From an uncultured Candidatus Saccharibacteria bacterium (GTDB taxonomy: Bacteria > Patescibacteriota > Saccharimonadia > Saccharimonadales > Saccharimonadaceae), in assembly GCA_947302125.1 (NCBI GenBank), contig CAMYUL010000005.1, positions 1-52,711 on the forward strand: 52,711 nucleotides of DNA, in the 5' to 3' direction. The position numbers and the translations under genes are program-made. The notes under the pieces were generated by a model. That model saw nothing but the letters and a program-made list of their open reading frames with translations, made no database searches and had not been told where the DNA came from. This document shows positions 1,581 to 52,711 of the stretch, one piece after another. The stretch's first letter is position 1, and each line of letters starts with the position of its first letter.

Positions 1581-1594
1581 CCGGCGGCATAACT

Positions 1595-1621
1595 AAATGT
1601 TGTAAAAAATACAACATTTTT
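1595..1621 (+). terminator. Weak A/T-rich hairpin after FISUMP gene
   Basis: A 10-bp perfect stem (AAATGTTGTA with TACAACATTT) encloses an A5 loop and is followed by a short T run. It may terminate the upstream gene. It also contains the dyad GTTGTA-N5-TACAAC that recurs elsewhere in the window, and it sits just upstream of the next promoter, so an operator role is possible. Confidence 0.45.
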
Positions 1622-1646
1622 ATAGAATATTACATCCAGCTTATGC

Positions 1647-1652
1647 TATAAT
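1647..1652 (+). promoter_or_regulatory. Extended -10 promoter, leaderless geometry
   Basis: TATAAT preceded by TGC (extended -10) ends 9 nt before the ATG at 1662. Initiation at the usual distance would leave essentially no 5' UTR. Confidence 0.6.
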
Positions 1653-1661
1653 AGAACCAGT

Positions 1662-3545: not shown

Positions 3546-3602
3546 TTCTTTAGCTCTTTCTCTCCCCCTCAAAAAAATCCCCACAAATCAAACCTTTTAT
3601 GC

Positions 3603-3608
3603 TATAAT
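3603..3608 (+). promoter_or_regulatory. Promoter of the gap operon (with leader)
   Basis: TATAAT with an upstream TGC lies 39 nt before the gap start. A leader of about 33 nt follows and includes a perfect AGGAGG at 3638-3643. This makes gap one of the few clearly leadered genes in the window. Confidence 0.6.
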
Positions 3609-3647
3609 AAGCGTAAGTATATTTCTATCAATTTTTTAGGAGGAACA

Positions 3648-17006: not shown

Positions 17007-19082
17007 ATGATAGATAAGAGAGGCCGGCTAAATAAGAACGACATCGTGTTATTTTCTGTGTTTAGTGGACTTCTTGCAATTTTTCTTATCGTTTTCGCAT
17101 GTTACACGTTCATTACTCCAGCTTCCACTTTTGCGGTCAATGACCCTAGTGCCAACGCCGCTACGGAAGTTGACCTAGAAATAGATCCGGTAATCTCGCT
17201 CGAGGTATTTGATAGTACCGGCTTAAATAATACTGACGAGATCAATCTAGACATTACCCCTACAGACGCCGGTACGTTTGCTAAGGATCATGTTATTGCT
17301 AGAGTAGATACGAATAATGAGAGTGGCTACTACCTGATGTTCGCTCTGGACGATAGCTATCTCTCCAACCAAGGAATAGACGTCATCCCTAGTATCGAAA
17401 CAGATGTGACTGAGGCGGAGTTCTCTACCGCCAGCTCCGCACATAAAGATAGATGGGGATTCAGTTATTCTTGGTCCGAAAATATCGCCGGTGAGAGCTA
17501 TGCCGGAGGAGACTTATCGCTGTATCATCCAGTTTTACCAGAATATTTTGACGAGCCACTCATCATTCGTGAAGATGTCGAGTCCCCAGTTAGAAACTCC
17601 TCTACCAATATCGGAGTCGGCGTTAATATCAGCACCGCCAAGCTACCGGGCACTTACCAGAATTACACCACAATTATCGCGATGGGTAACCTTGATCCAA
17701 GGTATTTCGCTGTCAATTTCGATGCTAATGCTGATGACGTAACTGGCGACGTTCCAGAGGCGATGACTGCCTACGCTAAAGCCACATATAAGTCATTCAC
17801 TATGCCGGTAGCGAATTTGACTAGACCTGGTGGTTATGAACTGGTCGGTTGGTCCGAGTCTCCGACAGCAGAAATAGGCGATGGCTCTGGCCGTAACGGT
17901 CTTTATCTTCCTGGTGACACAATTTGGGCTGATTACGGTTATGAGAATGAGGCTGACTTAGTCCCACAGACATATTACGCGGTATGGGATAAGACTGGAC
18001 ATATTCATTACGACGCCAATGGTACCGGTGTAGTCGGAACCATGGATGACCAGACCATAGTATTCCATACTGGTAGCGAAAGAGATATAGATGAAAACAA
18101 AATTTATTCCGGTTCAAGGGAGTTGACGTTGTTCTCACCTAACTTTGCTCGCCCAGGCTACGGATTTATCGGCTGGAACACTGAAGCTGATGGTTCCGGT
18201 AAAATGTTTGGTCCCAATGAAACACTATTCTCATTCAATCGAAGTGGATTCTCGGCGACGTTGACTTCACAGATACGGGAAGATTTAATCTCCGAAAATG
18301 GCCTCGTTCTTTACGCTCAGTGGGTGGCTTCTGCTGGAGACATGCAGAACTGGGATGGCTGTAGTGCTATGGATATTGGTGATGTCACGGCACTTACCGA
18401 TAATCGTGCGGATAGTATCAACATTAATAAAACCTATGCCGTGGCTAAGCTCGTCGGTGGTAAATGCTGGATGATAGAGAACCTCAGGTATACTGGGGCT
18501 GGAGAAAGCATGACAAATTGGTGTAATAACGCCAAGGATGCAAGTTGTCAAGCGACGAAAGAATATAATTATGGAAATATTGCTTCAGATGATAGCACTA
18601 GGTCGCCAATCGCTAATGATGAAGGTGGAAATAGGTGGTTTAGTTACGGCAACTACTATTCTTGGTCTGCGGCTGTTGGTAGTGATACTGATTATAGTCA
18701 GTACGCTGGCAATGTGACCGAATCTATCTGCCCAGAAGGTTGGAGGCTACCAACTAATCGTCACGTCTTCCAGTCCGGAGTGACTGACATTAAGGGTCTA
18801 GAGGAGGGGCTATACGTTAATGGAATGAGTGGTTTTGCGGAATATCATGCATACATGGTGTATCCAAATAATTTCGTTCTTTCTGGATCATATTCCTCGG
18901 GTTGGCGCTATAAGGGTTGGCCAATTAAGCCAAACAATCGTGGGGAGAACGGTACTTATCTGACCGCTCAAAGTGATAAAGAGTATGTCACAACGCTTAC
19001 TTTGAACCCTAACCCACTCGTTAACGGTAATTTCTCTGCTGATAAGGTAGACGGCTACGTTGTCCGCTGCGTCATCGATTGA
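17007..19082 (+). CDS. Secreted InlB-repeat and FISUMP surface protein
   Basis: The 691-residue protein has an N-terminal hydrophobic signal segment, then the shared secreted beta-domain (about 45-230) with RWGFSYSW and a LPGTYQNYTTII ending. A Listeria-Bacteroides/InlB-like repeat follows (about 230-330, FDANADDVTGD to TYYAVWDK), then a second repeat (about 335-445, HYDANGTG, FARPGYGFIGWNTEADG). The C-terminal FISUMP domain (about 450-691) has GGKCWMIENLRY, ICPEGWRLPTN and YVVRCVID. Its repeat and FISUMP sequences are closest to those of the protein at 46178, while the N-terminal domain is closer to those at 48305 and 50638. No anchor is visible. Confidence 0.9.
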   Translation: MIDKRGRLNKNDIVLFSVFSGLLAIFLIVFACYTFITPASTFAVNDPSANAATEVDLEIDPVISLEVFDSTGLNNTDEINLDITPTDAGTFAKDHVIARVDTNNESGYYLMFALDDSYLSNQGIDVIPSIETDVTEAEFSTASSAHKDRWGFSYSWSENIAGESYAGGDLSLYHPVLPEYFDEPLIIREDVESPVRNSSTNIGVGVNISTAKLPGTYQNYTTIIAMGNLDPRYFAVNFDANADDVTGDVPEAMTAYAKATYKSFTMPVANLTRPGGYELVGWSESPTAEIGDGSGRNGLYLPGDTIWADYGYENEADLVPQTYYAVWDKTGHIHYDANGTGVVGTMDDQTIVFHTGSERDIDENKIYSGSRELTLFSPNFARPGYGFIGWNTEADGSGKMFGPNETLFSFNRSGFSATLTSQIREDLISENGLVLYAQWVASAGDMQNWDGCSAMDIGDVTALTDNRADSININKTYAVAKLVGGKCWMIENLRYTGAGESMTNWCNNAKDASCQATKEYNYGNIASDDSTRSPIANDEGGNRWFSYGNYYSWSAAVGSDTDYSQYAGNVTESICPEGWRLPTNRHVFQSGVTDIKGLEEGLYVNGMSGFAEYHAYMVYPNNFVLSGSYSSGWRYKGWPIKPNNRGENGTYLTAQSDKEYVTTLTLNPNPLVNGNFSADKVDGYVVRCVID

Positions 19083-33502: not shown

Positions 33503-33521
33503 ATATATATATATATATATT
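33503..33521. repeat. AT dinucleotide repeat
   Basis: About nine AT units run directly into the stop codon of the minus-strand surface protein gene. Confidence 0.8.
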
Positions 33522-36500
33522 ATGTCTGAGCTATACACCTTACGGCGAATGCTGTCCACTTATTCCAGGCGCGTACCGGCGTAACGTTGTTGCTCTGTAT
33601 ACCCATCCTATAGGTACTATTTGCGTCGCTAGCCGTGGATGACCAGAGACGGGTATAAGTTCCTCGTCCAGCATCATCATTGGTGTTGTGATCGCCAGAG
33701 TAGATGAAGTTGGCCGGGAACGTCATTAGGCCGCTAGAATTAGAGGTAGAACCACCATTTACTGCGGCGTTCATCGCTTTATATTCGCCGTTATTTCCTG
33801 CCGTTGGCAACCTCCAACCAGCCGGGCAGAGGTCGCCGCTAGCGTCACCAGAGGCCACGCTATAAGTACCATTACCGGCCGTAGCCGTATACCAGTTATA
33901 GAGTACGCCATAACTATACCAAGAACTAATGTTGTTGTTTGCATTCGGTGAGGCTGAAAGAGTTCGATCTAGGTTATTAGAGTCAAATACAATTTTGTCT
34001 ATACATTCGCTATTATTATCCTTACACATCTGGGTTGATGACATGGATTGCGGTGCTCCTCTGATGAAGTCTTGAGTAGGAGAGTTGGTATTAGCAGTAT
34101 TAATATTTGCAGTGGAAGGTATGAGGCGTAGGTTTTCTGTCATCCAGCAATGGTTGTCTTGAAGCTTAGTGACTGTATATGTATTACTGTCGCGCACATC
34201 GGTAAGTGCAGTGCTATCACCGACCAACATCGAGCTACATCCGTTCCAGTTCTGGAGATTGCCAGCAGAGGCGATCCATTTAGCATATAAGACGGTGCCG
34301 TTCTGGGATACGTCGCCTACTGTGAATGACTGGTTCGGGCCATAATCTGTACCAGTACCGTCTGCAGCCGTATTCCAGCCGGCAAACCCATAGCCATTGC
34401 GGGAGTAGTTAGGGCTATTTAATACGATTGTCGCGCCAGAGGAAACACTATGCTTGATACTTGAGCCAGCATCGGCTCCATTGCCTTGGTAACAGACCTG
34501 GCCAGCTTCACATTCGTCAGCTTTCCAAACAGCATATAATATATTATCCGGATTTGTAGTAGTGAAGGTGCTACCAGGAGCATAGTCTGCAGTTGTTGCC
34601 GTTGGGTCGGTGCTCCAGCCGAGGAAGGTATGGTCTAGCTTGGTGAGGATGGCCCCAGACACGGTAAATGTCCAAGAGTCCTCACCGGCCTTAGTCACTG
34701 GGTTAGGTGCGCCACTACCGCCATTAGCGTCATAAGTGAGGTGTCCGAATGTTCCCCACATAGCGTATAGGGTAAGTGTGCCGCCAGAGCCAATCTGCTC
34801 AGCTGCAGCCGCCTCGGCCACCAGGTCTTCATCTGCTACTGCAACGCCAGTGCCATTCGCCTTGGTGTTCCAGCCGTTAAAGCTTAGTCCATCTCCATGC
34901 GTGAATGCGTTTGCTGCTGCGGCAGTAGAATAGAGATCAACATTAGTCGTGTTAGGCATTGATCCGGTACCGCCATTAGCCTCATAATGGATGTTGCCAG
35001 TAACGGAAGGATTATTATTGTTTGCAATACACCTAATCGAGAAGCCGTCCCACTTGTTCCAAGTGTTGTTAATAAAGGTTACCGTATTAGAGGAATAACC
35101 GCCACGATAGGACTTTTCAATTGAATTTGCCGTAGCGGACCAGAAGCGTCCCTGGAAGCCGCGTCCAGTTGTAGTGCCGCCATTATAATCGCCAGAATAG
35201 GCGAAGTTAAGCGGATACTTTCTAAGTTTGCTGTCACTCCTAGTATTACCACTGTTAGCGGCTGAGTTCAGGGCCTGTAAGTCGCCACCATTATTGCCAG
35301 TTGGTAGTCTCCAGCCAGCCGGGCAGATGTCGCCGCTAGCAGACCCACTAGCCATGTCGTAAGTACCATTGCCAGCCGTGGCTGTATACCAGTTATATGC
35401 GCCACCATATGTATACCAGGACCCAGCAGAGGTATTAACGTCTGGTGTCGGGACAAGGCCGCGATTCATATTATTTAGATTGTAGGAAACTATATTTACA
35501 CAAGCTGCGGTGTCGTCAGTACACATAGTGTTAGTGGATGCCGATGATGGAGCCTGCTCCAAGAAGGCATTGGTTGGGGAATTAGTGTTAGCGGTAGAGA
35601 TTTTCGCCCTTGATGGATCGATACGCATATTTTCTACCATCCAGCATTTACCATCTGCTAGTTTCGCCACTGCATAGGAGTTATCATCGCGAAAATCTTT
35701 TAGCGCGATGACGTCGCCAATGCTCATACTACTACACCCGGTCCAGTTTTGCATGATGGTGGTAGAACGAATCCACTTGGCGTAAAGTATTAGTCCTAGA
35801 GAAGAGAGGTCGTCGGTCGTAATAGTCTCACCTGCACCATAATCCGTACCGGTACCATCCGCTCTCGTATTCCACCCGGCAAAGCCATAGCCAGGGCGAG
35901 AGAAGTTAGGCGGAGTAAGCATTACTGAACTGTTTGACGAGGCTGACTGATTAGGCATTGTGCCAGTACCATCATCACCATTACCCTTATAACAAATATG
36001 GTCAGGAGGACAAGCAGGAGCGTTATTAATTGTAGCTGTAATCATAAAGGTATTAGAATATGTGTCGGCGGTGATATCTAATGCCGGCTTAACTCCAAAT
36101 GTTAGCTTGTAAGTATAAGTACCATTAGCGCTCTCGCTAAAGAGCCTAATGTCGCCAATTAACGGATCCGGGACAGGGGAATAGTAGGCGCCATCATCAA
36201 TGCTGTAGCCATAGCCATACCCGGCCGAGCTGGCTGGCATCTTGTCTACACCGGATGGGAAAGTATATGTTGGAATAGAAGATGAGTTTCCGACCGTTGT
36301 TGTCGTGAGTGCAGAAGAAGGCCCAACCGTGGACATCGTCACCGTATAGCCAGCAGAGTTGGTTGTTGATACGGAGAAATCCTTATAGCCAGAGTCAAAC
36401 TGGCCCGGGGCAATATCTAATGAGATCGTAGCAGAGGAGAATGACATTGAAATGTCATCTTCCGCAAATACTGTTTTGACATCGAAAAACAATGCCATGA

Positions 36501-36564
36501 AGGCGAAGGTAGTCAGAGCTAGAAACACTCGAAAATATGTGTTCCTCCACAAACTCCAACTCAT
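33520..36564 (-). CDS. Large secreted surface protein with two FISUMP and several InlB-type repeats
   Basis: The 1014-residue protein has a signal peptide ending near VFAED. The shared secreted beta-domain is at about 40-190 (GYGYGYSID, ending SNTFMITATI). An InlB-like repeat follows (FSRPGYGFAGWNTRADG), then FISUMP domain 1 (about 290-525: DGKCWMVENM, ICPAGWRLPTG, FSIRCIAN). Two or three further InlB repeats come next (about 530-790: HYEANGGTGSMPN, TYDANGGSGAPNP, YQGNGADAG). FISUMP domain 2 ends the protein (DNHCWMTENL, LCPAGWRLPT, FAVRCIAQT). The frame is open 27 codons upstream, but ATG 36564 lies 6 nt after a -10 box and precedes the signal peptide properly. It is divergent from the 36767-41408 locus. 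Confidence 0.9.
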   Translation of the reverse strand: MSWSLWRNTYFRVFLALTTFAFMALFFDVKTVFAEDDISMSFSSATISLDIAPGQFDSGYKDFSVSTTNSAGYTVTMSTVGPSSALTTTTVGNSSSIPTYTFPSGVDKMPASSAGYGYGYSIDDGAYYSPVPDPLIGDIRLFSESANGTYTYKLTFGVKPALDITADTYSNTFMITATINNAPACPPDHICYKGNGDDGTGTMPNQSASSNSSVMLTPPNFSRPGYGFAGWNTRADGTGTDYGAGETITTDDLSSLGLILYAKWIRSTTIMQNWTGCSSMSIGDVIALKDFRDDNSYAVAKLADGKCWMVENMRIDPSRAKISTANTNSPTNAFLEQAPSSASTNTMCTDDTAACVNIVSYNLNNMNRGLVPTPDVNTSAGSWYTYGGAYNWYTATAGNGTYDMASGSASGDICPAGWRLPTGNNGGDLQALNSAANSGNTRSDSKLRKYPLNFAYSGDYNGGTTTGRGFQGRFWSATANSIEKSYRGGYSSNTVTFINNTWNKWDGFSIRCIANNNNPSVTGNIHYEANGGTGSMPNTTNVDLYSTAAAANAFTHGDGLSFNGWNTKANGTGVAVADEDLVAEAAAAEQIGSGGTLTLYAMWGTFGHLTYDANGGSGAPNPVTKAGEDSWTFTVSGAILTKLDHTFLGWSTDPTATTADYAPGSTFTTTNPDNILYAVWKADECEAGQVCYQGNGADAGSSIKHSVSSGATIVLNSPNYSRNGYGFAGWNTAADGTGTDYGPNQSFTVGDVSQNGTVLYAKWIASAGNLQNWNGCSSMLVGDSTALTDVRDSNTYTVTKLQDNHCWMTENLRLIPSTANINTANTNSPTQDFIRGAPQSMSSTQMCKDNNSECIDKIVFDSNNLDRTLSASPNANNNISSWYSYGVLYNWYTATAGNGTYSVASGDASGDLCPAGWRLPTAGNNGEYKAMNAAVNGGSTSNSSGLMTFPANFIYSGDHNTNDDAGRGTYTRLWSSTASDANSTYRMGIQSNNVTPVRAWNKWTAFAVRCIAQT

Positions 36565-36570
36565 GTGACC

Positions 36571-36576
36571 ATTATA
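36571..36576 (-). promoter_or_regulatory. Extended -10 promoter, leaderless geometry
   Basis: On the minus strand TATAAT preceded by TTATGC ends 6 nt before the ATG at 36564. Confidence 0.6.
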
Positions 36577-36691
36577 GCATAAACGCCATGATTTTTGTGA
36601 AAAAAATAAGCGTTTTTTTATCTTTTTTTGCGGCTTTTTCCACAAGCATTTTCCAGCCTCACTTTTTTGTGGGGAATTTTACAAAAAACTA

Positions 36692-36720
36692 TTGACATAA
36701 GCAGTTTTGTGCTGTACAAT
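36692..36720 (+). promoter_or_regulatory. -35/-10 promoter of the first small secreted protein
   Basis: Consensus TTGACA (36692-36697), a 17-nt spacer and TACAAT (36715-36720). A leader of about 40 nt follows. It contains a block (GTCATAT, then TAAATAAACA) that is also found in the leader of the paralogue at 37684. Confidence 0.65.
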
Positions 36721-36766
36721 GTAAGTACAAAAAGTCATATATTGTAAATAAACAGGGATAAACAAA

Positions 36767-37471
36767 ATGTCCAAAACAAAAACTCTATCATTGGGTCTTG
36801 GTGCAATCGTGGCAGTCGGTGCTGCAATTTTGCCAATGACCGCCTATGCGGACAATGAGCCAACGAGCGAGGCATATGTTGATATCAACGTTAATGTATC
36901 CACCGTTCTCAGCATGACGCTTAATACGCATTCGGTAGCTGCTGCTGGCGGTAGCACTGGCGCCTACGTCTGCGACACTACCGCAACGCCTAATTGTTCC
37001 GGCGTCTCTCAGGTTGCAGCTATTGAGATGTTGCCGAACTCCGTTGACCTTACAACTATGTATACCGACGTTTCTGTCAGCACTAATAGCGCCGCTGGTT
37101 TTACTCTTACCTTGATTGATTCCGACGACAACAATAACTTAGTTAATGCTAACAGTGATACTATCAATGCTATCTCTTCCAAGCCGGCCGCTGGCAGCAA
37201 CGCTGGTTGGGCAGTGTCTGTTAATGCTACTGACGTCTGGAATAAGGTTCCAAAGAACGCTGGCGCCGTTGATCCAGCTGAGCAGCCACTTGTCATCGAG
37301 AACTACACTCCAGCTACCCCATCTACCACCGTCGGCCGCGTCAATACTGTTCACTACGGCGTAGCCACTTCGGACACTCAGCCAACTGGCACCTACACCG
37401 ACACTGTTGTCTACACTGCAACTGTCAATGGTAGCGGCTCCTCCTCCTCCTCCTCACAGCAATCCCAATAG
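36767..37471 (+). CDS. Small secreted WxL-like beta-domain protein
   Basis: The 234-residue protein has a classical signal peptide (cleavage after AYA, about residue 28). The mature part is essentially one beta-rich domain. Landmarks are DINVNVSTVLSMTL, VSVSTNSAAGFTLTL, NAGWAVSV and a GTYTDTVVYTATVN ending, followed by a Ser/Gln tail. The N-terminal domains of the FISUMP proteins share these landmarks. The layout (small secreted protein followed by DUF916-like genes) recalls Gram-positive WxL loci. Homology to the WxL domain is not demonstrated. It has a strong consensus promoter, so it may be abundant. Confidence 0.8.
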   Translation: MSKTKTLSLGLGAIVAVGAAILPMTAYADNEPTSEAYVDINVNVSTVLSMTLNTHSVAAAGGSTGAYVCDTTATPNCSGVSQVAAIEMLPNSVDLTTMYTDVSVSTNSAAGFTLTLIDSDDNNNLVNANSDTINAISSKPAAGSNAGWAVSVNATDVWNKVPKNAGAVDPAEQPLVIENYTPATPSTTVGRVNTVHYGVATSDTQPTGTYTDTVVYTATVNGSGSSSSSSQQSQ

Positions 37472-37503
37472 TCCACGTTTACAATATTAAACAATATATG
37501 GCA

Positions 37504-37535
37504 AGCCACCGTTTCTATCCCGCGGTGGCTTTCTT
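37504..37535 (+). terminator. Terminator of the first small secreted protein gene
   Basis: AGCCACCG pairs with CGGTGGCT, followed by a TTCTT tail. Confidence 0.75.
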
Positions 37536-37597
37536 GTACCCCAGTTTTATTGTGGAAAACTTGGTCAAAATTCTTATGAAAATCTTCAAAAAAACTA

Positions 37598-37626
37598 TTG
37601 ACTTAGCATTAGCGTTGTAATATAAT
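37598..37626 (+). promoter_or_regulatory. -35/-10 promoter of the second small secreted protein
   Basis: TTGACT (37598-37603), exactly 17 nt, then TATAAT (37621-37626). The leader shares a block with that of 36767 and ends in an AGAAAGGA-type RBS. Confidence 0.65.
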
Positions 37627-37683
37627 AAGAATCACAAAGGTCATATAAATAAACATATCAAAACAAAGAAAGGAAAATTTATT

Positions 37684-38328
37684 ATGTCCAAAAGTACTAA
37701 AGTTATTGCCGCTCTCGGCGTAGTAGCAGGTCTTGGTGTTGCTGCTCTTCCAGCATTCACTTATGCTACCTCCACTGTTGCTGGTCAGGTAACTCTTAGC
37801 GTCGACGTTAGCGAAGCTATTGCTATGACCATTCTTGGTAATGGCGATGGCGGCACTGCAGGTGTTGACGTATACACTCCAACTGGTGCTGATGTTATTG
37901 ATGGCCACAATATTGGTACACTCTATGATTCATCCAGCCTTCAAACTTCTTCTTCCACTGTAAGCTTGCTTCCAAACGCTGCAGATACCACTACGGCGAC
38001 TTCCGCTGTCACGGTCTACACTAACGCTGCTGGTGGCTACACTTTAACCGTTAAGGATGCAGATGCTACTACCGCTCTCTCTGACGGTGCTGGTCACACT
38101 ATTCCAGCTGGCGCTACTATCACCGCTGGTACCGCTGCTTGGGGTTATAAGGGTGGCTCCGTAACGAACTTTGCAGCTATCTCTGCAACTGAAGCTACAG
38201 TTTACTCTCAGAATGCTCCAACTTCTGGTGGTCAAACTACTAACATGACCTACGGTGTTTCTACCGCTTCCGATCAGGCAACTGGTACTTACACTGATAC
38301 CATCATCTACACTGCTACAACTAACTAA
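37684..38328 (+). CDS. Small secreted WxL-like beta-domain protein, paralogue
   Basis: The 214-residue paralogue of the preceding protein has a signal peptide (cleavage near TYA) and a single domain with LSVDVSEAIAMTI, VTVYTNAAGGYTLTV, AAWGYKGG, NMTYGVSTASDQ and a terminal GTYTDTIIYTATTN. It lacks the Ser/Gln tail and ends right after the last strand. It has its own strong promoter and terminator, so it is expressed as a single gene. It may be a major surface or secreted subunit, which is inference from promoter strength and gene context. Confidence 0.8.
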   Translation: MSKSTKVIAALGVVAGLGVAALPAFTYATSTVAGQVTLSVDVSEAIAMTILGNGDGGTAGVDVYTPTGADVIDGHNIGTLYDSSSLQTSSSTVSLLPNAADTTTATSAVTVYTNAAGGYTLTVKDADATTALSDGAGHTIPAGATITAGTAAWGYKGGSVTNFAAISATEATVYSQNAPTSGGQTTNMTYGVSTASDQATGTYTDTIIYTATTN

Positions 38329-38345
38329 TTTAGCTAAGTAGAGAT

Positions 38346-38370
38346 AAGCCCCTCACGCGAGGGGCTTTTT
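38346..38370 (+). terminator. Terminator of the second small secreted protein gene
   Basis: A 9-bp perfect stem AAGCCCCTC with GAGGGGCTT, a 4-nt loop and T5. Confidence 0.92.
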
Positions 38371-38428
38371 GGTGTCTTGGCTCCAAAATCTTAAAAATCA
38401 AGTCTTGCAAACGCCAAATGCCTCGTGT

Positions 38429-38434
38429 ATAATA
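38429..38434 (+). promoter_or_regulatory. -10 promoter of the DUF916-like gene pair (with leader)
   Basis: TATAAT preceded by CGTG lies 20 nt before the ATG at 38455. AGGAGG lies within the short leader. Confidence 0.55.
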
Positions 38435-38454
38435 GACGCATAACAAGGAGGTTA

Positions 38455-39453
38455 ATGGCTAAAAAAATAAAACTTATTCTTGCTGCTTTTCTCATGGCAT
38501 TAACAGTAGGAATTTTTACAACTAATACCGCATTTGCAGAGGATGGAGGATACGAGAAAGCTCCTATTCACCTACAAGTCTCCCCTGCAAAGCTCAAAGT
38601 TTCTATTAAGCCAGGCTCTTCATATGTAGGTACTATGAAGGTTATGAATGTTGGCGCTAGGCCATTTGACTATGAGGTCAATGCTACACCATACAGCGTT
38701 TCTGGTGAGGAATATAATCCAAATTACACTGCTGAGGCTACTTATTCTCAGATGTCACAGTGGATCACTTTTGACAAGAAGACTCAAAAGGGCACGTTGC
38801 AGCCAGAACAGATCGTAGACGTCACCTTTACGGTGAATGTTCCAAACGATGTTCCTGCCGGTGGTCAGTACGCTGCCATTATGGCGCAGACCAGCTCTGG
38901 TAACGCCGAAGATGCCAATATTAAGACTATTCACCGTGTTGGTATGATTCTTTATGCATCTGTCCCAGGCGAGACTCGGGAATGCGCCGAAATCACAAAA
39001 AATACTGTTAACAGCTTTTATTTTAACCCTCCTATTACGGTTTCATCTCTTGTAAAGAACTGTGGTAATATCGAACAAACTGCAACCTATACCGTCAAGA
39101 TGTATCCACTATTTTCTAACGAAGCCGTATTCTCTAATGAGGAAAACCCAGCAACCTTAGACATCTATCCAGATACCTCTAGATTCAACTCTATTTCTTG
39201 GGACGGTGCTCCAAGAATCGGTATCTTCAAGGTCACCCAGATCGTCGACTTTGGTGGCAGCAGCGAGAACAGAGAGGTTACTAAGTATGTCCTAATCTGT
39301 CCACTCTGGCTACTATTTGTCATTATCGCCCTAATCTTCTTCATTATTTTCTGGCTAGTCTCTCGTGCTAGAGATCGCAAGAGGGGAAGAAGCGCCGCTG
39401 CCGGCAGATCGGGCAAAGAAAGTAATTCTGATAAAGAGAAGGAGGAAAAATAA
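38455..39453 (+). CDS. DUF916-like membrane-anchored surface protein
   Basis: The 332-residue protein has a signal peptide (to about AFAED), an Ig-like DUF916-type domain (about 35-165: IHLQVSPAKLKVSIKPGS, VMNVGARPFDYEV, QWITFD, DVPAGGQYAAIM), a second beta-domain (about 165-275), and one C-terminal membrane helix (about 280-303) with a basic cytoplasmic tail. This is the layout of the DUF916/DUF3324 proteins that accompany WxL proteins in Gram-positives. The AGGAGG at 38447-38452 supports the ATG at 38455 over an upstream in-frame codon. The stop overlaps the next start as TAATG. Confidence 0.8.
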   Translation: MAKKIKLILAAFLMALTVGIFTTNTAFAEDGGYEKAPIHLQVSPAKLKVSIKPGSSYVGTMKVMNVGARPFDYEVNATPYSVSGEEYNPNYTAEATYSQMSQWITFDKKTQKGTLQPEQIVDVTFTVNVPNDVPAGGQYAAIMAQTSSGNAEDANIKTIHRVGMILYASVPGETRECAEITKNTVNSFYFNPPITVSSLVKNCGNIEQTATYTVKMYPLFSNEAVFSNEENPATLDIYPDTSRFNSISWDGAPRIGIFKVTQIVDFGGSSENREVTKYVLICPLWLLFVIIALIFFIIFWLVSRARDRKRGRSAAAGRSGKESNSDKEKEEK

Positions 39454-40415
39454 TGTATAAGAAAATTATTGCGGCTGCTATCGCCGTCACCGGAGTTGTT
39501 GCTCCGCTAGCCAACGTCAATAACGTCTATGCAGAAGAGCCTACTGCTACTAGCTCCGCTGCTAGCTCCTGGATTCAGGTTTCACCGGTATCTAGCCGTG
39601 TTACCTTGAAGCCAGACACCGCACTAGATTACTCAATGATTGTTTCCAACATCGGCGAGGATGAGTTCAAATTCAGCACATACACTGCTCCATACTCCGT
39701 CGTCGACGAGGATTACAACGTTAGCTTCGCTAATGAGACTAACCGCACTCAGCTATCCCGCTGGATTCAGTTCATTAATGATGATGGTTCTTTGACTGAT
39801 AAGTACACCGGCTCCATTCCAGCCGGCGAGAAGAAGACTGTCAATTATCGCATTACCGTTCCAGCAGATATCCCTGCTGGCGGTCAGTACGCCACTATCT
39901 TTGCTCAAACCGAGCCAGAAGATACTAATAGTAGCGCCTCCGGTATTAAGACTGTCTCTCGTATCGGCCTAGTCGTCTATGGTCGCACCAGTGGCGACAC
40001 TGAGGAGAAGGCAGAGATTGTTGACTTCCATATGGACCGTTTCCTAACTCAGGGTCCGGTCAAGGCGACTGCCCTTGTCAAGAACTCCGGTAATACTGAT
40101 TTTGAAGTCAAGTATGAATATACTGTCAATTCTATCGTCGGCAATGAGCTTTACCACAAGGAAGACGCTCAGAACGTACTCCCAGAGACTTCTCGCCGCA
40201 AAACTTACGAATGGGAAAACACTTCCATTATGGGCATCTTTAAGGCTACATTTAAGGTCTCCGCTCTTGGTGAAACTCGTGAAGAAACTCACCTTGTCAT
40301 CATTATGCCAATCTTCATGATTGTAATTGCAATTATCCTCTTGACAATTTTAACCATATGGATTATAATGATAGTCAGGAAGCGTAGAGAACGCAAATCT
40401 AGGCTCGTCGCTTAA
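39453..40415 (+). CDS. DUF916-like membrane-anchored surface protein, paralogue
   Basis: The 320-residue paralogue of the preceding protein has the same architecture: signal peptide (to about YAEE), first beta-domain (SWIQVSPVSSRVTLKPDT, RWIQFI, DIPAGGQYATIFAQ), second domain (about 165-275), a membrane helix (about 280-305) and a basic tail (RKRRERKSR). The two may form a heteromeric assembly. Translational coupling to the upstream gene supports this. Function by analogy would be holding or presenting the small WxL-like proteins at the cell surface. Confidence 0.8.
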   Translation: MYKKIIAAAIAVTGVVAPLANVNNVYAEEPTATSSAASSWIQVSPVSSRVTLKPDTALDYSMIVSNIGEDEFKFSTYTAPYSVVDEDYNVSFANETNRTQLSRWIQFINDDGSLTDKYTGSIPAGEKKTVNYRITVPADIPAGGQYATIFAQTEPEDTNSSASGIKTVSRIGLVVYGRTSGDTEEKAEIVDFHMDRFLTQGPVKATALVKNSGNTDFEVKYEYTVNSIVGNELYHKEDAQNVLPETSRRKTYEWENTSIMGIFKATFKVSALGETREETHLVIIMPIFMIVIAIILLTILTIWIIMIVRKRRERKSRLVA

Positions 40416-40496
40416 GAGGCGAATCTAAGATCAGCGTACTGCGAGCATAAGTCTACGCAAGCCAAAACAAAAACATTAAACAAGCGAGTGTAGAGT

Positions 40497-41408
40497 ATGC
40501 GAGTAAATAAAAAACAACTGCTTGGTTTTGGTGGCTTGGCCTTCGTCGTAGGCTTAACCACCATTGCCTACAATCTCCCAACAAGCGCTGTTTCCGTGGG
40601 TGGAGCCGTGGAAGTGCGTGTGGAGGTTTACAACATCAATCTCGAAACTGTCATTCAGTCGCCAGAAGATGGTGATATCGTAAGCGACAAGGATGTGACA
40701 TTTTCAGAGATGCATAGCCATGCGTCTAATGTTAAGTACTATTTGACGTATGTTGCTGAAGACGGTACCGAAACAGTACATGAGTTAACGGATCAAGAAA
40801 TCTCTGGTACCGATCTAACCGGTAGGACAGAATTCACCCTAGACCTAGACAATTATGGTGGCGCGGGTACCTATATCTTCCGTTCGGTTGCTACTAACGA
40901 TGATGGTGTCGTCAGGGAAGACGCCGTGCAATTCACTTATGCCAGATCAAGTGCTGATCAGGACGACGTGGTTGTAGACGGCGACAATAAGAAGATAGCC
41001 TTCCGTGTTTGCTATACCGCAGGTGTAGACAGACTCGTCTATCAAATCTTTGACAAGAACGGCAATCCTGTCTCAAACGAATATGAATACGAAATTCAGG
41101 ATACCGATTGTGGAGACTGTGTCGAAATTGAGATCCCATTAGAGGGCGATGATGCTCCGGATCTAAAAGAAGACGGTCAGTATACAGTCGTCATCAAGAG
41201 TTACGACGAGAACGGCAACCCTATCAGCACTAGCAGCGTTTACTTCGATTACGAAGCTAAACCTGATGATATTGATGTTCCGGATACTGGTTCTATCCTT
41301 AAGGCCCTAAACATTTCTAAAGCCGATTTTATGATCACGGGTTTGGTCGGCTTTACAATTATCAGTCTTATTTCTCTCTTCGTCATCAGAAGATCACACA
41401 AGAAATAA
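40497..41408 (+). CDS. Secreted two-domain protein with PDTG sorting-like C terminus
   Basis: The 303-residue protein has a signal peptide (about 1-32), two beta-rich Ig-like domains (about 45-150 and 155-265), and at the C terminus VPDTGS, a spacer, a hydrophobic helix and RRSHKK. This is the order of an LPXTG-type sortase signal, with Pro-Asp-Thr-Gly in place of the Pro-x-Thr-Gly core. No sortase gene is in the window. Three cysteines lie in the second domain (RVCYTAG and DCGDC). It follows the DUF916-like pair by 81 nt with no clear promoter, so it is probably co-transcribed and completes a WxL-like set. Confidence 0.8.
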   Translation: MRVNKKQLLGFGGLAFVVGLTTIAYNLPTSAVSVGGAVEVRVEVYNINLETVIQSPEDGDIVSDKDVTFSEMHSHASNVKYYLTYVAEDGTETVHELTDQEISGTDLTGRTEFTLDLDNYGGAGTYIFRSVATNDDGVVREDAVQFTYARSSADQDDVVVDGDNKKIAFRVCYTAGVDRLVYQIFDKNGNPVSNEYEYEIQDTDCGDCVEIEIPLEGDDAPDLKEDGQYTVVIKSYDENGNPISTSSVYFDYEAKPDDIDVPDTGSILKALNISKADFMITGLVGFTIISLISLFVIRRSHKK

Positions 41409-41451: not shown

Positions 41452-41484
41452 AGCGGGCACTATGCGAGGAGTGCCCGCTTTTTT
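41452..41484 (+). terminator. Terminator of the DUF916/PDTG operon
   Basis: A 10-bp perfect stem AGCGGGCACT with AGTGCCCGCT, an 8-nt loop and a T run. Confidence 0.93.
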
Positions 41485-46168: not shown

Positions 46169-46177
46169 ATGAAGCAT

Positions 46178-48235
46178 ATGAAGAGAGGTCTCAAGAATAA
46201 TTTGTATACTCACTGTAAGGGAGCCTTAGTTACTACTAGTATCTTTTCCGGCGCTTTCATTATCTCTATTATGGCTGCCTCTATCTTCGCCCCAGCCAGC
46301 CGTTCCAACGCCGACACCCTCATCTTTGAGGACCAGGATTCTGGCTATACTGCATCAGTCTCTTCTGCTAACACTATAGAACTAGACGTCGCTGCCACTA
46401 CTGGCGGTACCCTAGCCAGAGCTCATGACACAGTCAACATTGTCACAGACAACCCAGAAGGCTATACTCTCTACCTCTCCATGAACAACGTCTCTGACTA
46501 TTCCGTCAGCAAACCAGGCAACGCCCTCTACCTAGACGGCAATAGCACTAGCACTAGCTTCATCAACCCAACTTCCGGTACCTCATCAGAACCATCCAGC
46601 CTAGGTACTAACGAATGGGGCTACAGCCTAGCAGACAACCTAGCCTTCTCCAAAGTCCCTCTAAGGTCTAACCCAGACACTGTCGCTACATCAGATTCTG
46701 CTACTACCGCAGAAGGAGACAACCTAGACGTCTACTATGGCGTCAACGTCAACTCCGCCCTCCCTACCGGTTCCTACACTGGTGTAGTCAACTACTCTGT
46801 CCTTTCTGACTACAGTGGAGAAAGCAGTGACAAAGCTGGAGTGTTCCCAGGAGATCTATCGATTGATAGCGCCGACTTAGAGGGAGCTACTATCAATATT
46901 TCTACAAACTTGTATACGACTAAGACTTTCCAAAATAACGAAGTCTCCGTCCTAATTGGTGAATCCGGCCAGGAACAAGCCTGTACGATTACGGAAGTTT
47001 CCACTGCTTCCGGCCAATTAACAGTAACCTGTGCTCTTCCTAACTTCACTTTCCCAGATTACGGTGACTATACCCTCCCAGTCACTCTTTCCGTACCTAG
47101 CTATAATAAAACCTATACGGGTATGACGCTAACCATCCATTACGAAGAGCCATTCCCATGCGAGGCTAATGCTATTTGCTATGCACCTAACGGCGACAAT
47201 ATAGATGGTACAATGGACAATCAAACCACGGTCTATCATACTTCGACGGATTGGTCTGTAAACAGCACTGCGCTATCATCTAGTGTAACTGAGCTTACCC
47301 TCTATTCTCCAAATTTTGCTCGTCCAGGTTATGGCTTTGCCGGCTGGAATACTAAGAGAAATGGCACTGGCACCACGTACGGTCCTAACCAGGCCCTAAG
47401 AACTAGCGACGGCACTTTGACTCCAGAAATGCAATCAACACTAGGAACAAGCGGAATCGTTCTCTACGCCAAATGGGTTGCCTCTGCTGGTGATATGCAA
47501 GATTGGTCTGGCTGTAGCTCAATGAATATTGGCGATGTGACCGCCCTCACTGATAATCGTGCGGATTCTATCAACACTGGCAAAACATACGCGGTCGCTA
47601 AGCTTGCAGATGGTAAATGCTGGATGATAGAGAACCTAAGATATGCCGGAACTGGCACTAGTACTAATAGCTGGGTTACTGACAGGCCCGCTAACTATCA
47701 AACACTGAAACAGTATAATTTTACGAATATTACCATGCCTGACACCAACAAATCGCCAACAGACAATATTGCTACTGGGAGTAGATGGTATAGCTATGGC
47801 AATTATTATTCTTGGCCAGCAGCTGTTGACAGTACTACATTGTATAGTAGTGGTCAAACTGCTCCAGCTCCAGGCATTTGTCCGGCCGGTTGGAGAGTGC
47901 CAAGTTCTAATGGTGCTTCTACTGATTATGGCGGCTTATACTACCTATTAAACAATGAGGATACTACCATCACTTCTAATAACTTAAGAACATACCCTAA
48001 CAACTATGTATTTTCTGGGTATTGGACTATTACAAACTATAATGAACCATCGAAAGCGACAAATCGTGGCGTCTTAGCGAGCTATTGGTCATCCGTAGCG
48101 TCAAACATTACTTCCTCCATGGCTAACGCATATGTCGGCCTTAACTTCTGGTCCAGCTCCGCCGTTAATGCTTCGGAGAACGGGAACTTCAATAGGTTCT
48201 TTGGTATGCCGGTTCGCTGTGTCACTGGCTCTTAA
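46178..48235 (+). CDS. Secreted FISUMP and InlB-repeat surface protein
   Basis: The 685-residue protein begins MKRGLKN and has a signal peptide, the shared beta-domain (about 50-225, NEWGYSLAD, GSYTGVVNYSVL), an Ig-like segment (GESGQEQACT), an InlB-like repeat (about 325-435, CYAPNGDN, FARPGYGFAGWNTKRNG) and a FISUMP domain (about 440-685, ADGKCWMIENLRYAG, ICPAGWRVPS, MPVRCVTGS). The N-terminal half matches the protein at 1662. The repeat and FISUMP parts match the protein at 17007, so it is a mosaic. An ATG nine bases upstream (46169) touches the -10 box and is less likely. Confidence 0.9.
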   Translation: MKRGLKNNLYTHCKGALVTTSIFSGAFIISIMAASIFAPASRSNADTLIFEDQDSGYTASVSSANTIELDVAATTGGTLARAHDTVNIVTDNPEGYTLYLSMNNVSDYSVSKPGNALYLDGNSTSTSFINPTSGTSSEPSSLGTNEWGYSLADNLAFSKVPLRSNPDTVATSDSATTAEGDNLDVYYGVNVNSALPTGSYTGVVNYSVLSDYSGESSDKAGVFPGDLSIDSADLEGATINISTNLYTTKTFQNNEVSVLIGESGQEQACTITEVSTASGQLTVTCALPNFTFPDYGDYTLPVTLSVPSYNKTYTGMTLTIHYEEPFPCEANAICYAPNGDNIDGTMDNQTTVYHTSTDWSVNSTALSSSVTELTLYSPNFARPGYGFAGWNTKRNGTGTTYGPNQALRTSDGTLTPEMQSTLGTSGIVLYAKWVASAGDMQDWSGCSSMNIGDVTALTDNRADSINTGKTYAVAKLADGKCWMIENLRYAGTGTSTNSWVTDRPANYQTLKQYNFTNITMPDTNKSPTDNIATGSRWYSYGNYYSWPAAVDSTTLYSSGQTAPAPGICPAGWRVPSSNGASTDYGGLYYLLNNEDTTITSNNLRTYPNNYVFSGYWTITNYNEPSKATNRGVLASYWSSVASNITSSMANAYVGLNFWSSSAVNASENGNFNRFFGMPVRCVTGS

Positions 48236-48304: not shown

Positions 48305-50449
48305 ATGGGAATACTAACCACACGTATTAACAAAGGTAGGCTTTGGTCTGCCTGTGTTGGTATTCTTTCTTTAGGATTTGTTAGCAGCCTTCTCATTCCT
48401 TCTGTATTTAGCTTTGCCTCTGCCTCCGCAGAAAGTGTTGGTAGTTCTACCTTATCAGTAAGGGTAAAAGATGTTATTGCTATTCGTATCCTAGACGATA
48501 CTGGAACTAGTAGCATTTCTACTCTTGGTATTGATATTGCTCCTACACCTAATGGTTCTACGGTTACTAAGAATGCTATAGTAGACGTTGCTACTAGTAA
48601 TGAGACTGGCTATACGCTATATATGGATAGTGACTATAAAGAAGATGGTACTTCTTCTTCTACTACTCCAGAAACTCAATTTAACTATACTACCGATCTT
48701 ATCCATACTGATCCTACTGTAACTGTTACCATTCCTTCTTCTGTTCCATCCTCTTCTTCCGATACTAACTTCTGGAACTACACTACTTCCTGGAACGATA
48801 CCATTGGTACTGGATCAAACACTACTACTCTTACTGGTACTGCTCCTGCTACCGTTATCCCTACTCATGGTACTCCTGACACCATTAGAGATGACGTCAC
48901 CGAATCTACCGATAGCAGTATGACTACTATTGGTATTAATGTTAACGTGAACAACGATATTCCATCAGGAACTTATAAGAACAAGCTAGTCTTTACAGCT
49001 GTAGCTAATGAGCTTCCACCACAATATACTTACTTACAAGAATTTGATGCCGATGCGAGCCTGCTCAATGTTGGCGACTCTATGGATCTGCTTGATCAGC
49101 GCGACAATTCGCAATATACCATTAGGAGACTAGAAGATGGCAGTGTTTGGATGGTGCAAGGCCTTAGATATTCTGGGGCAACTGACCCTGGGGCCACCGC
49201 AAGGTATAGCGGTACATTCACGACTAGCGCGACTGACTCGGAAGCAGCTGGTACTATCACGCTTGTCTCAGACTTTGGTACGGCAACCCAGCCGCAACCT
49301 TACGCAGCATATAGGGGAGACGCTTCAGATGGCGCATACTACAATTACCCAGCAGCAATGATGGTGTGCCCTTCCGGCTGGCACCTTCCAACCAGTGAAG
49401 AGTACGTTAATCTCAATAAGGCCTACGGTGGTTCAGTCGGTGTCGTACCAAATTCGCCAAGCTGGGCCGACCTGACATCTAGCAGCAAGGCTAATCTAAC
49501 CCTTTCTGGCCGCTACGCCGGAGCAAGCTTTGACTATGACGGAGCAAAGGGTAGGTACTGGGCTTCAACCTTAGTGCTTGGAGATAGCACCAAAGCTTAT
49601 GCTGTAGCGTTAGATGGAGATAGTAACAATTCGGTCGATATTATTAACCCGAACGGTTGGAAATATTACGGGTTTACGATCCGCTGCGTCGCCAACCAAA
49701 AGCGCCTATGGAGCATCAACACTATGCAAGAAATGACGCCAGAAATTTGCGCCACAACTACTACGCCAACCACATCGGCAACCAACATAGATACCGATGG
49801 TAGCCATGTCGGGGACAAGTCCTACGTCCCGCAAAACACCTTAACTGACACTAGAGACAACAACACTTACATCGTCCGCAAGCTTGCCGATGGCAACTGC
49901 TGGATGGCGGAGAACCTGCGTGCTATTAACACTGAGCTAGCCGCAGATCAATCTGATAATCTTGCTAGCAATTTCACCCTGCCAGCTTCAGCTTTAGTCA
50001 ATTATTCCAATGGTAATTCCATAGCATATGCTTATACCGATCCTATCGCAAATGCTGGGGTGCTCTATAGCTGGTACGCTGCTGTTGGTGGAACAAGTAC
50101 TGCTACTAGCGATCTAGCTACCGGTTCAATCTGTCCAAAAGGCTGGGAATTGCCTAGGGACTCCGGCGATAAGAGTATGCAGAATATGGTAGGGACTGTC
50201 TATGGTGGCAGCTCCAACGTGAGTATAATGCGTAACTCACCGATTTCTATGCCAGCAACAGCACACATTATAAATGGTTCATATACTACTACTGGCGGAT
50301 GGGGAAATAATTACAGCGTTCATTATACCGCGAAATCGTCAGCCGCCAACAGTGCATATGTAGTTATCGGCGCATCCAATCGAGTAGACCTAAGATACTC
50401 GCACGCAGTTACTTCGTCTGGCTTCTCCGTAAGATGTGTTGCAAAGTAG
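48305..50449 (+). CDS. Secreted surface protein with two FISUMP domains
   Basis: The 714-residue protein has a signal peptide ending near ASAES and the shared beta-domain (about 40-235, FWNYTTSW, SGTYKNKLVFTAVAN). FISUMP domain 1 (about 240-460) is diverged: the first cysteine is replaced by Ser in EDGSVWMVQGL, although MVCPSGWHLPT and IRCVAN remain. FISUMP domain 2 (about 460-714) has MQEMTPEICATTTTP, ADGNCWMAENL, ICPKGWELP and VRCVAK. Domain 2 matches the second domain of the protein at 1-1580. The N-terminal domain is of the 17007/50638 type. Confidence 0.9.
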   Translation: MGILTTRINKGRLWSACVGILSLGFVSSLLIPSVFSFASASAESVGSSTLSVRVKDVIAIRILDDTGTSSISTLGIDIAPTPNGSTVTKNAIVDVATSNETGYTLYMDSDYKEDGTSSSTTPETQFNYTTDLIHTDPTVTVTIPSSVPSSSSDTNFWNYTTSWNDTIGTGSNTTTLTGTAPATVIPTHGTPDTIRDDVTESTDSSMTTIGINVNVNNDIPSGTYKNKLVFTAVANELPPQYTYLQEFDADASLLNVGDSMDLLDQRDNSQYTIRRLEDGSVWMVQGLRYSGATDPGATARYSGTFTTSATDSEAAGTITLVSDFGTATQPQPYAAYRGDASDGAYYNYPAAMMVCPSGWHLPTSEEYVNLNKAYGGSVGVVPNSPSWADLTSSSKANLTLSGRYAGASFDYDGAKGRYWASTLVLGDSTKAYAVALDGDSNNSVDIINPNGWKYYGFTIRCVANQKRLWSINTMQEMTPEICATTTTPTTSATNIDTDGSHVGDKSYVPQNTLTDTRDNNTYIVRKLADGNCWMAENLRAINTELAADQSDNLASNFTLPASALVNYSNGNSIAYAYTDPIANAGVLYSWYAAVGGTSTATSDLATGSICPKGWELPRDSGDKSMQNMVGTVYGGSSNVSIMRNSPISMPATAHIINGSYTTTGGWGNNYSVHYTAKSSAANSAYVVIGASNRVDLRYSHAVTSSGFSVRCVAK

Positions 50450-50637: not shown

Positions 50638-52711
50638 ATGAGGAGTTTGTGGAGTACCCGCGGGGGGTATAAGATGCGGTTGGCATCTTTTGGATGTTTT
50701 GCAGCAATTGCTGTATTCTCCTTCTTGTGCTCCAGTCTTATTACGTCTTCGGCTTCTGCGAACAGTGCATCCGATCTAAATCTTTCCGTCACAGTTACCC
50801 CAGTTATTTCTATTAGAACCCTAGACGGCACCGCTACCTCAGAGATTAACGCTCTGAATTTTAGCATTACTCCAACCGATTCCGGTTCTCGCACCACTCA
50901 GACCACTGTGGTCGATGTCGCTACTTCCAACGTCTCTGGTTATACCTTGCTCATGCAGTCAGATTATAAGCTTGGCGCAGATTACACCACTAGCCTCGTT
51001 CATACAAATACTACAACCGCAGCTTCTAGCATTGGACAGATTCCTACTGCTACCACTTCGGCCGCTAGTGCTGCTAGCTACTGGAACTATTCTAAGTCCT
51101 GGAATGAAACATTGGGTCTTAACGGCAATACCAAGGATTTTTCTAGCTCTAGCATCCCAGTAGGCTCTAAGAGCAATCAACTTATCCCAGCCCATAATAC
51201 TCCAACCACTTTGAGGGATGACGTTGATATGGCTGCAGCTAGCTCCAAGACTAATATTGATATTAATGTTAATATCGCTACTGATAAAGCCGGCGGCGCC
51301 TACGAGAACAGAATCGTATTCACTGCTATTGCAAACCCTATTCCAGTAGATTACGCCCTCACCTTCGACAAAAATACTAATGACACCGTCAACAATCTTC
51401 CGAGCCCGATTACCGCTTCTGTTATTGCCGCATCTAACTCCTTTACTATCCCGAACACTTCCAATATGTCCCGTACTGGCTATCGCTTCCTTGGTTGGAG
51501 TGAATCCGCTAGCTCTAGGCAGGGAAATGGCTCTGGCCCTGACGGATTATATGTCGCTGGAGATAATTTTGTAATTATCGCTGATGATCAACAGAGTTAT
51601 TCTCAACACGGTACCGGCTCTGCTTCGCTTTACGCTATCTGGACCGAGGAATATGCGTACACACTTAGCTTCTCCTGCCAGTCCGGAGTTTCAAACTGTC
51701 CAGCCACCCAGTCCTCTACGGAAATTGCCGCTTCTAAGTCTTTCACCATCCCGGCTACTGCTCCTTCCTTAGAAGGCTACAGCTTCGTAAATTACACGGA
51801 TAATGGTGCTGGTTCTGGCACTGCCTATAACCCAGGCGACACGGTCACCTTATCTGGCGCAGCTCCTGTTAAGACCTTGACCGCTAACTTCTCCATCGAT
51901 TCTCATAAACTCACCGTCAATCCTAACGGCGGCACCTGGAACAGCAACACTTCCAGCCAGGAGTTCACTCAGAATTACAACACCGCCAAGACTATCGCCG
52001 CCCCATCTGCTAACGCCAAGTATAATATCTCCTATAACGCCAACAATACTGGCGTGACTATGCTAACTTCTCCAGCAAGCGCCACTAGATCCTTCACCGG
52101 CTGGACCAAGTCTGGTGGTGGTTCCTGGAATAGCAGTAACAATACTTACACCTTCGGTACATCCGACGGCACCTTAACCGCCCAATATAACTCCACTTCA
52201 GATTCCTTCACCCTTCCATCCATCAGTAAGGAAGGCCACACCTGTAAGTGGGCAGAAGGCAGTGCTAATGGCGATCAGTATGACGGTGGAGCCTCCAGAA
52301 CCGTTACTACCGATACTACTTACTATGCTATCTGTTCCGTCAGATCCTACAAGCTTACCGTCAACCCTAACGGCGGTACCTGGAACAGTAGCACTTCCAA
52401 CCAGGAGTTCACTCAGAATTACAACACCGCCAAGACTATCGCCGCCCCATCTGCTAACGCCAAGTATAATATCTCCTATAACGCCAACAATACTGGCGTG
52501 ACTATGCCGACTGCCCCAGTCACTGTCGATAGATCATTTACTGGCTGGAACTTGAGCGGTGGTGGCTCCTGGAATGGTGGTAATAATACGTATACCTATG
52601 GCGCTTCCGACGGCACCTTAACTGCCCAATACAACTCCACTTCAGATTCCTTTACTCTTCCATCCATCAGTAAGGAAGGCCACACCTGTAAATGGGCAGA
52701 AGGCAGCGCTT
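50638..52711 (+). CDS. Large secreted InlB-repeat surface protein, 3'-truncated by window edge
   Basis: The frame is open from ATG 50638 to the right edge, giving at least 691 residues. It begins MRSLWSTRGG, with a signal peptide ending near SASANS. The shared beta-domain (about 45-240) has YWNYSKSW and ends ENRIVFTAIAN. An InlB/Listeria-Bacteroides repeat follows (about 243-340, FDKNTNDTVNN, TGYRFLGWSE, LYAIW), then a diverged repeat (SCQSGVSNCP). From about residue 425 there is a tandem repeat of 148 residues (444 bp), with the second copy running off the edge. No FISUMP domain is reached before the window ends. Confidence 0.88.
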   Translation, partial: MRSLWSTRGGYKMRLASFGCFAAIAVFSFLCSSLITSSASANSASDLNLSVTVTPVISIRTLDGTATSEINALNFSITPTDSGSRTTQTTVVDVATSNVSGYTLLMQSDYKLGADYTTSLVHTNTTTAASSIGQIPTATTSAASAASYWNYSKSWNETLGLNGNTKDFSSSSIPVGSKSNQLIPAHNTPTTLRDDVDMAAASSKTNIDINVNIATDKAGGAYENRIVFTAIANPIPVDYALTFDKNTNDTVNNLPSPITASVIAASNSFTIPNTSNMSRTGYRFLGWSESASSRQGNGSGPDGLYVAGDNFVIIADDQQSYSQHGTGSASLYAIWTEEYAYTLSFSCQSGVSNCPATQSSTEIAASKSFTIPATAPSLEGYSFVNYTDNGAGSGTAYNPGDTVTLSGAAPVKTLTANFSIDSHKLTVNPNGGTWNSNTSSQEFTQNYNTAKTIAAPSANAKYNISYNANNTGVTMLTSPASATRSFTGWTKSGGGSWNSSNNTYTFGTSDGTLTAQYNSTSDSFTLPSISKEGHTCKWAEGSANGDQYDGGASRTVTTDTTYYAICSVRSYKLTVNPNGGTWNSSTSNQEFTQNYNTAKTIAAPSANAKYNISYNANNTGVTMPTAPVTVDRSFTGWNLSGGGSWNGGNNTYTYGASDGTLTAQYNSTSDSFTLPSISKEGHTCKWAEGSA
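51910..52711 (+). repeat. 444-bp tandem repeat in a surface protein gene
   Basis: Unit 1 is 51910-52353. Unit 2 starts at 52354 and is cut by the window edge. The units are nearly identical over long stretches (for example the 115 bp after NPNGGTWNS) with clustered differences. Each unit contains an NPNGGTWN block and a KWAEGSA block. Confidence 0.9.

Follow-up and report, generated by a model that had tools for sequence, protein, structure and literature searches.

Which kind of surface system is encoded by five adjoining genes of an uncultured Candidatus Saccharibacteria bacterium, and how is it connected with the large FISUMP adhesins of the same genome? The genes lie on the forward strand of contig CAMYUL010000005.1 (assembly GCA_947302125.1), and the window is the whole analysed stretch of 52,711 nucleotides, contig C5 of a 13-contig, 673-kb assembly. 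Two secreted, pilin-like proteins, S1 (36767..37471, 234 aa) and S2 (37684..38328, 214 aa), are followed by two WxLIP-like proteins, I1 (38455..39453) and I2 (39453..40415), and by the secreted protein T (40497..41408), which ends in VPDTG, a helix and RRSHKK, a sortase-type sorting signal. Both I proteins have a signal peptide, two immunoglobulin (Ig)-like domains and one membrane helix; in I1 this anchor is a C-terminal helix with a basic tail. A giant FISUMP protein (33520..36564, reverse strand, ATG near 36564) is divergent from them. These features were all present as described in a first-pass annotation, which had proposed a distant or convergent WxL-type display system. The analysis yielded two protein families, homology of I to WxLIP, an S domain common to the small proteins and the N termini of the FISUMP proteins, linkage and co-divergence of S and I, and fold models for both. 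The evidence carries two labels, pilin-like for the S domain and WxLIP-like for its membrane partner.

The I proteins are homologous to WxLIP

The known system used for comparison was the WxL cluster of Lactobacillales and Listeria with its WxLIP protein (DUF916 + DUF3324; PMC10599100; PDB 9i1y, 9i25). Single-protein Pfam and NCBIfam searches with the five small open reading frames (ORFs) gave no family above cut-off, and single-protein sequence searches against the PDB gave no match. I1 scores 15.3 bits with PF06030 (WxLIP_PGBD, DUF916), under the curated cut-off of 27.3. This profile matches 85 of 240 Patescibacteria genomes, 38 of them above cut-off, and is not fully specific, with control matches in Thermotoga and Methanosarcina. 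Such control matches, and the similar scores of NPCBM_assoc and fn3_5 on single proteins, would fit an explanation that takes I for an ordinary NEW3/Ig surface protein standing near S only because surface genes cluster. Applied to the family, PF06030 matched 22 of 33 I members (best 1.1e-7) and outscored fn3_5 and NPCBM_assoc. Profile-profile comparison with hhalign aligned window-type I proteins with nine Firmicute WxLIP proteins at P=1.2e-11 (97%). More distant Patescibacteria I proteins form a bridging set, with P=1e-40 to the window-type I and P=5e-22 to Firmicute WxLIP. Controls mostly gave P 4e-4 or worse; one, Firmicute WxLIP against T, reached P=2e-6 over an Ig domain plus helix, a warning that proteins of this composition attract each other.

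An AlphaFold2 (AF2) model of I1 was built from 33 sequences and reached a mean pLDDT (predicted local distance difference test) of 88.6, with the C-terminal helix at residues 284-331. In a Foldseek search over PDB chains, ranks 1-3 were taken by the solved WxLIP of E. faecium (E 5e-13), both alone and bound to long WxL. The VIA alignment with WxLIP gave Z 13.6 over 229 residues, ranks 1 and 2 by Z, at a root-mean-square deviation of 7.8, suggesting that the two domains of I1 are turned differently from those in the solved protein. Next came the chaperones PapD, FimC and Caf1M with VIA Z 10-12, together with other Ig and ASH/PapD-like chains. The whole-length two-domain match to WxLIP, the best-scoring of all PDB folds, speaks against an ordinary NEW3/Ig protein, as do the linkage of S with I 35 times above chance and the co-divergence of the two, both described below. 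We therefore regard that explanation as very improbable.

I1 has relatives, often in several copies, in 108 of the 151 genomes of its family; the nearest named ones, at 56-70% protein identity, are from Candidatus Saccharibacteria of ruminant intestine. Within its own genome the I family is confined to this locus. Taken together, the homology of I to WxLIP covers both domains, although I does not reach the formal cut-off of the family. The relationship of the 38455 and 39453 proteins to DUF916/DUF3324 was thus recovered by both profile and predicted fold; of the earlier phrase "distant or convergent", homology stands for the membrane proteins and convergence falls away. Unlike WxLIP, the I proteins are a translationally coupled pair, and NQIDKxxxYFDLK, a conserved motif of the WxLIP PGBD (PMC10599100), is absent from both sequences.

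An S domain heads the FISUMP proteins

S1 and S2 belong to one family, and iterated profiles gather approximately 130 small proteins encoded beside I genes. A profile made from small proteins only matched the N termini of five FISUMP proteins in the window, with E values from 3e-20 to 4e-13 (1e6 sequences). These are the forward-strand proteins at 1662-3545 (S at 1698..2348), 17007-19082 (17064..17768), 46169-48235 (46187..46879) and 48305-50449 (48362..49072), and the one from 50638, which extends beyond the window (50677..51414). The sixth, the divergent protein at 33520-36564 (S at 35947..36456, reverse strand), joined the S family in the next round and was also matched by an independently built profile. 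It carries two FISUMP domains (E=5e-26) and a List_Bact_rpt repeat (E=1.6e-10, NCBIfam), and the FISUMP profile (TIGR02145) matches above its cut-off. The earlier suggestion of a fold shared by the small proteins and the N-terminal domains of all FISUMP proteins in the window was borne out as homology, and it can be extended to the genome. There, 36 FISUMP domain matches were found, and in 18 of 18 FISUMP proteins with an intact N terminus the S domain stands directly behind the signal peptide. None of the 18 has a C-terminal hydrophobic helix; L245_9994, a weak FISUMP-like match with an N-terminal anchor, was left out of this count.

The S modules are more than 70% identical in 17 of 153 FISUMP pairs, up to 100% over 240 residues, whereas the C-terminal FISUMP domains are only 24-43% identical in 16 of these 17. 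The S modules of the mosaic pairs are 81-100% identical. Such a mosaic is the pattern that would be expected of a constant display module joined to variable binding domains. The idea of a common docking module, which the first-pass annotation had put forward, stands and is strengthened by the mosaic proteins.

Near-identical S modules with diverged C termini (contigs C1 and C3, and the 48305 protein of the window) may point to a recombination or phase-variation system; near-identical 5' parts of FISUMP genes also carry a risk of assembly collapse. On contig C9 (L245_6131-7789, reverse strand) a protein of 552 aa has an N-terminal S domain and no FISUMP domain, and its gene lies between ribosomal-protein and secY genes. 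The domain shared by the large proteins is C-terminal in the WxL system and N-terminal in this genome. In other lineages S is found at the C terminus of large proteins, as in large WxL proteins; examples are the RCC1-repeat protein L073, L101 and frames of more than 2,000 aa beside I genes.

S and I are linked across Patescibacteria

The order S-(S)-I-(I)-T is repeated in many Saccharibacteria. In most cases among 79 named loci, the position upstream of I is taken by S, by a second I or by a small secreted protein with S behind it. Among the 240 Patescibacteria genomes, S was found in 57 and I in at least 103, and at least 53 of the 57 genomes with S also have I. Outside the genus of the window, at least 77 of the 95 places with S have an I gene no more than 5 kb away, where 2.2 would be expected (about 35 times chance). 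Because the order recurs and the proximity of S to I is far above expectation, the arrangement of the locus is not a product of chance. At 14 loci with two different S-I cassettes, the subtypes of S and I agreed in 223 of 245 comparisons with other loci.

Several of these neighbourhoods hold further proteins. In 36 cases from ruminant Saccharibacteria (L130, L131, L133, L137, L139 and others), S and I are separated by a conserved protein of about 185 aa ("M") that has an N-terminal membrane anchor; tested as further S members, the M proteins proved unrelated to S. WxL is described as essentially Firmicute. Matches to the WxL profile PF13731 were nevertheless found in 11 of the 240 Patescibacteria genomes, several co-located with I. 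True WxL-profile proteins were seen in L084, L085, L087, L088, L090-L095 and L099, most of them adjoining WxLIP-like genes, and the Patescibacteria WxL proteins compare with Firmicute WxL at P=1.5e-13 to 2e-15.

A complete cluster was also observed in an actinobacterium, Leucobacter chromiireducens LYC-2 (L179, scaffold23, 1-4330, GC 61%), comprising a large protein with a C-terminal S, a small S, an I and a C-terminally anchored protein. Its I matches the Saccharibacteria profile at 4.8e-93, compared with 5.6e-24 for the next Microbacteriaceae genome; by these scores the cluster looks like a transfer between Saccharibacteria and the host phylum. Mostly distant I-like (WxLIP-like) proteins are present in 75 of 300 Microbacteriaceae genomes (G389-G681), and the dock family is thus not limited to Firmicutes and Patescibacteria.

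The identity of the S domain

That the small proteins are WxL domains could not be established. PF13731 found no match in the own genome at E<=0.01, and the two Trp-x-Leu motifs are missing in S, with YTL and YTA in the 37684 protein. Profile-profile comparison of S with WxL gave weak links in the right register (P 1e-4 to 0.05, probability 1-62%), for which the reversed controls gave P 0.2-0.7 and an S versus I control 4e-4. A clean S model applied to WxL sequences was not significant (E 2.8-8.7). Proteins of L050, L091 and L092 were considered as a sequence bridge between S and WxL and were rejected, as they match both models only when the S model itself includes them or their relatives. In some Saccharibacteria relatives of S the first motif reads W-x-[VIL] (GGWKVTA, GGWDLNA). 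Homology of S to WxL is plausible, though unproven.

The fold of S was addressed with an AF2 model of S2 (mean pLDDT 82, residues 90-214 mostly >95). Among the matches listed, its nearest folds are chaperone-usher pilins and fibre subunits (TLP-1, TasA, Pyrobaculum pili, cannulae) at Z 7-8.5, in a range where, according to the tool, values of Z <8 may mean only a common sandwich arrangement. TLP-1 gave Z 8.0 over 141 residues, and Ig-like domains of glycosidases reached similar Z. Among the 50 fold matches listed for S, the solved WxL chain 9i25_A was absent, which is not evidence against WxL. A second lead was obtained from CPR_Pam_pilin_C (NF058581), which gave weak matches for 8 of 42 S members (best 6e-5) and matched distant S members over the whole profile (4.5e-10, 1.1e-9 and 2.2e-5). 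All scores stayed below the cut-off of 55 bits, with 11.5 for the 37684 protein and 39.8 for the best S relative, and the S proteins of the window gave E 0.24 or no match. The pilin domain of the CPR Pam pilus is homologous to S by way of Patescibacteria relatives (E 4.5e-10), in whose genomes it also stands beside I genes, while the window S is far below the cut-off. No paper describing a "Pam pilus" was found in the accessible literature, and the comparison uses the NCBIfam model alone.

The fold lead and the Pam-pilin lead agree with each other. The WxL lead is compatible with both, since an incomplete sandwich, completed by a strand of WxLIP, is also the prediction for WxL (PMC10599100). 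For S, the label "pilin-like" would fit no worse than "WxL-like".

This bears on the alternative of a WxL-type dock that does not polymerise. In such a dock S would be a strongly diverged, peptidoglycan-binding WxL domain clamped by I, no filament would be formed, the FISUMP proteins would correspond to the "large WxL" proteins and T to the LPXTG partner. The gene partners are indeed the same as in Firmicute WxL loci: a two-Ig protein anchored in the membrane, with a signal peptide and a C-terminal helix, adjoining small secreted beta-domain proteins, large surface proteins sharing that domain and a PxTG protein. A WxL-type protein is encoded beside I in other Patescibacteria, among them L100, of a genus of the window's own family (GGWTLTL). 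The S set outscores controls with the WxL profile, both motif positions are in register (GYTLTV and GTYTDTIIYTAT versus GWTLSV and YTTTLTWTL), and S aligns with the Patescibacteria WxL set at P ~1e-4 in hhalign, with reversed controls at 0.2-0.5. However, S misses PF13731, Tyr replaces Trp in both motifs, the S-WxL comparisons described above are weak, and the nearest folds among the matches listed are pilins. We consider a non-polymerising WxL dock unlikely, if still a serious competitor.

Layout of the locus and the T protein

The ATG of I1 at 38455 is preceded by AAGGAGG and was preferred to a GTG at 38425, from which a longer I1 is unlikely. The start region of I2 reads GGAGG...AATAATG, and its ATG overlaps the stop of I1. 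Near-consensus sigma-70-type boxes were found 5' of S1 (36692, TTGACA-17-TACAAT), S2 (37598), I1 and T (40341, TTGACA-17-TATAAT), one site matching 12/12, and terminator-like stems follow S2 (38346-38367) and T (41452-41479). These sites are pattern matches only. Because of the boxes before four units and the stems after S2 and T, the layout suggests that S1, S2, I1-I2 and T are expressed separately, in several transcription units and not one operon.

Homologues of T in other Saccharibacteria have [VILP]PxTG at the same place, and the arrangement of PxTG, helix and basic tail recurs at the T position in a dozen loci. The search for a sortase elsewhere in the genome that the first-pass annotation had called for found three; two adjacent sortase-type ORFs lie at L251 4746-6216 on contig C13. 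With its PxTG, helix and basic tail and a sortase in the genome, T qualifies as a candidate sortase substrate.

Proposed assembly by donor-strand complementation

We lean towards the view that the locus is a surface assembly or docking device that works by donor-strand complementation and displays both S subunits and S-headed adhesins. The S proteins would be incomplete, pilin-like beta-sandwiches, and the membrane-anchored I1 and I2 would hold the secreted S at the membrane by donating a strand, as predicted for WxLIP and WxL. The small S proteins would then be strung together, probably by an N-terminal strand in the manner of TasA-type pili, to form a filament or platform, the base of which T may tie to the wall via sortase. 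FISUMP adhesins, lacking an anchor of their own, would be built into this structure by way of their N-terminal S, so that one constant module could display a variable set of adhesins. Behind the signal peptide, 40% of small S proteins have an alternating hydrophobic stretch (8% in shuffles); the enrichment is weaker in FISUMP proteins, at 22% versus 12%. The likely purpose is attachment to a host bacterium, as Saccharibacteria are epibionts of other bacteria.

Parts of such a device are known from other systems. In the predicted structures, I resembles the two-Ig arrangement of the chaperones of chaperone-usher pili and S the pilin sandwich, but I has a membrane anchor, no sequence link exists and an usher is not expected in a monoderm cell. 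The predicted fold of S is likewise similar to that of TasA-type, TLP-1 and archaeal fibres, with TasA and Pyrobaculum pili among the Foldseek matches, again with no sequence link. TasA systems have SipW/TapA in place of a WxLIP-like protein. TapA of these systems has been described (PMC10151520).

The PapD-like fold of I and the missing anchor of the FISUMP proteins would also suit a general role of I as membrane-tethered secretion chaperones, with S as a secretion or folding handle and the FISUMP proteins released, not displayed. This leaves the small S proteins without a purpose, and it has to contend with the PxTG protein in the same conserved locus of many genomes and with the C-terminal S on very large, surface-type proteins beside I in relatives. 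We rate such a role as improbable.

Several points weigh against a strand-complementing assembly device. Strand complementation, polymerisation and the role of T are predictions made from genes and single-protein models. S and I of the window do not reach the curated thresholds of CPR_Pam_pilin_C, WxL and WxLIP_PGBD, and the fold scores of S lie in a range where, by the tool's warning, only a common sandwich may be meant. The concordance of S and I subtypes would also result if entire cassettes were duplicated; it is evidence of linkage and not of contact. Finally, with separate promoter-like sites for four units, the stoichiometry of one operon is not given.

Possible implications for host recognition

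The earlier reading had identified the correct relative of two of the five proteins and had a sound idea of a common docking module; its WxL label for the small proteins was not established. A literature search found no paper that links Saccharibacteria to WxL, or Patescibacteria to either FISUMP or donor strand. We tentatively propose that Firmicute WxL/WxLIP, the Pam pili of Patescibacteria and this locus may be one monoderm counterpart of chaperone-pilin systems, with a membrane-tethered chaperone, and that in this genus the pilin module may have been copied onto at least 18 mosaic adhesins. This would connect WxL loci, Patescibacteria pilins and PapD-type chaperones, which are usually treated apart, and the solved WxL-WxLIP complex makes the predicted strand insertion directly testable. 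It also offers a gene-by-gene hypothesis, in which a large adhesin set shares one module and one dock, the dock protein being present in at least 103 of the 240 sampled genomes. If true, a single assembly locus would present a switchable host-binding repertoire, which bears on the recognition and holding of bacterial hosts, beyond type IV pili, by Saccharibacteria and other Patescibacteria.

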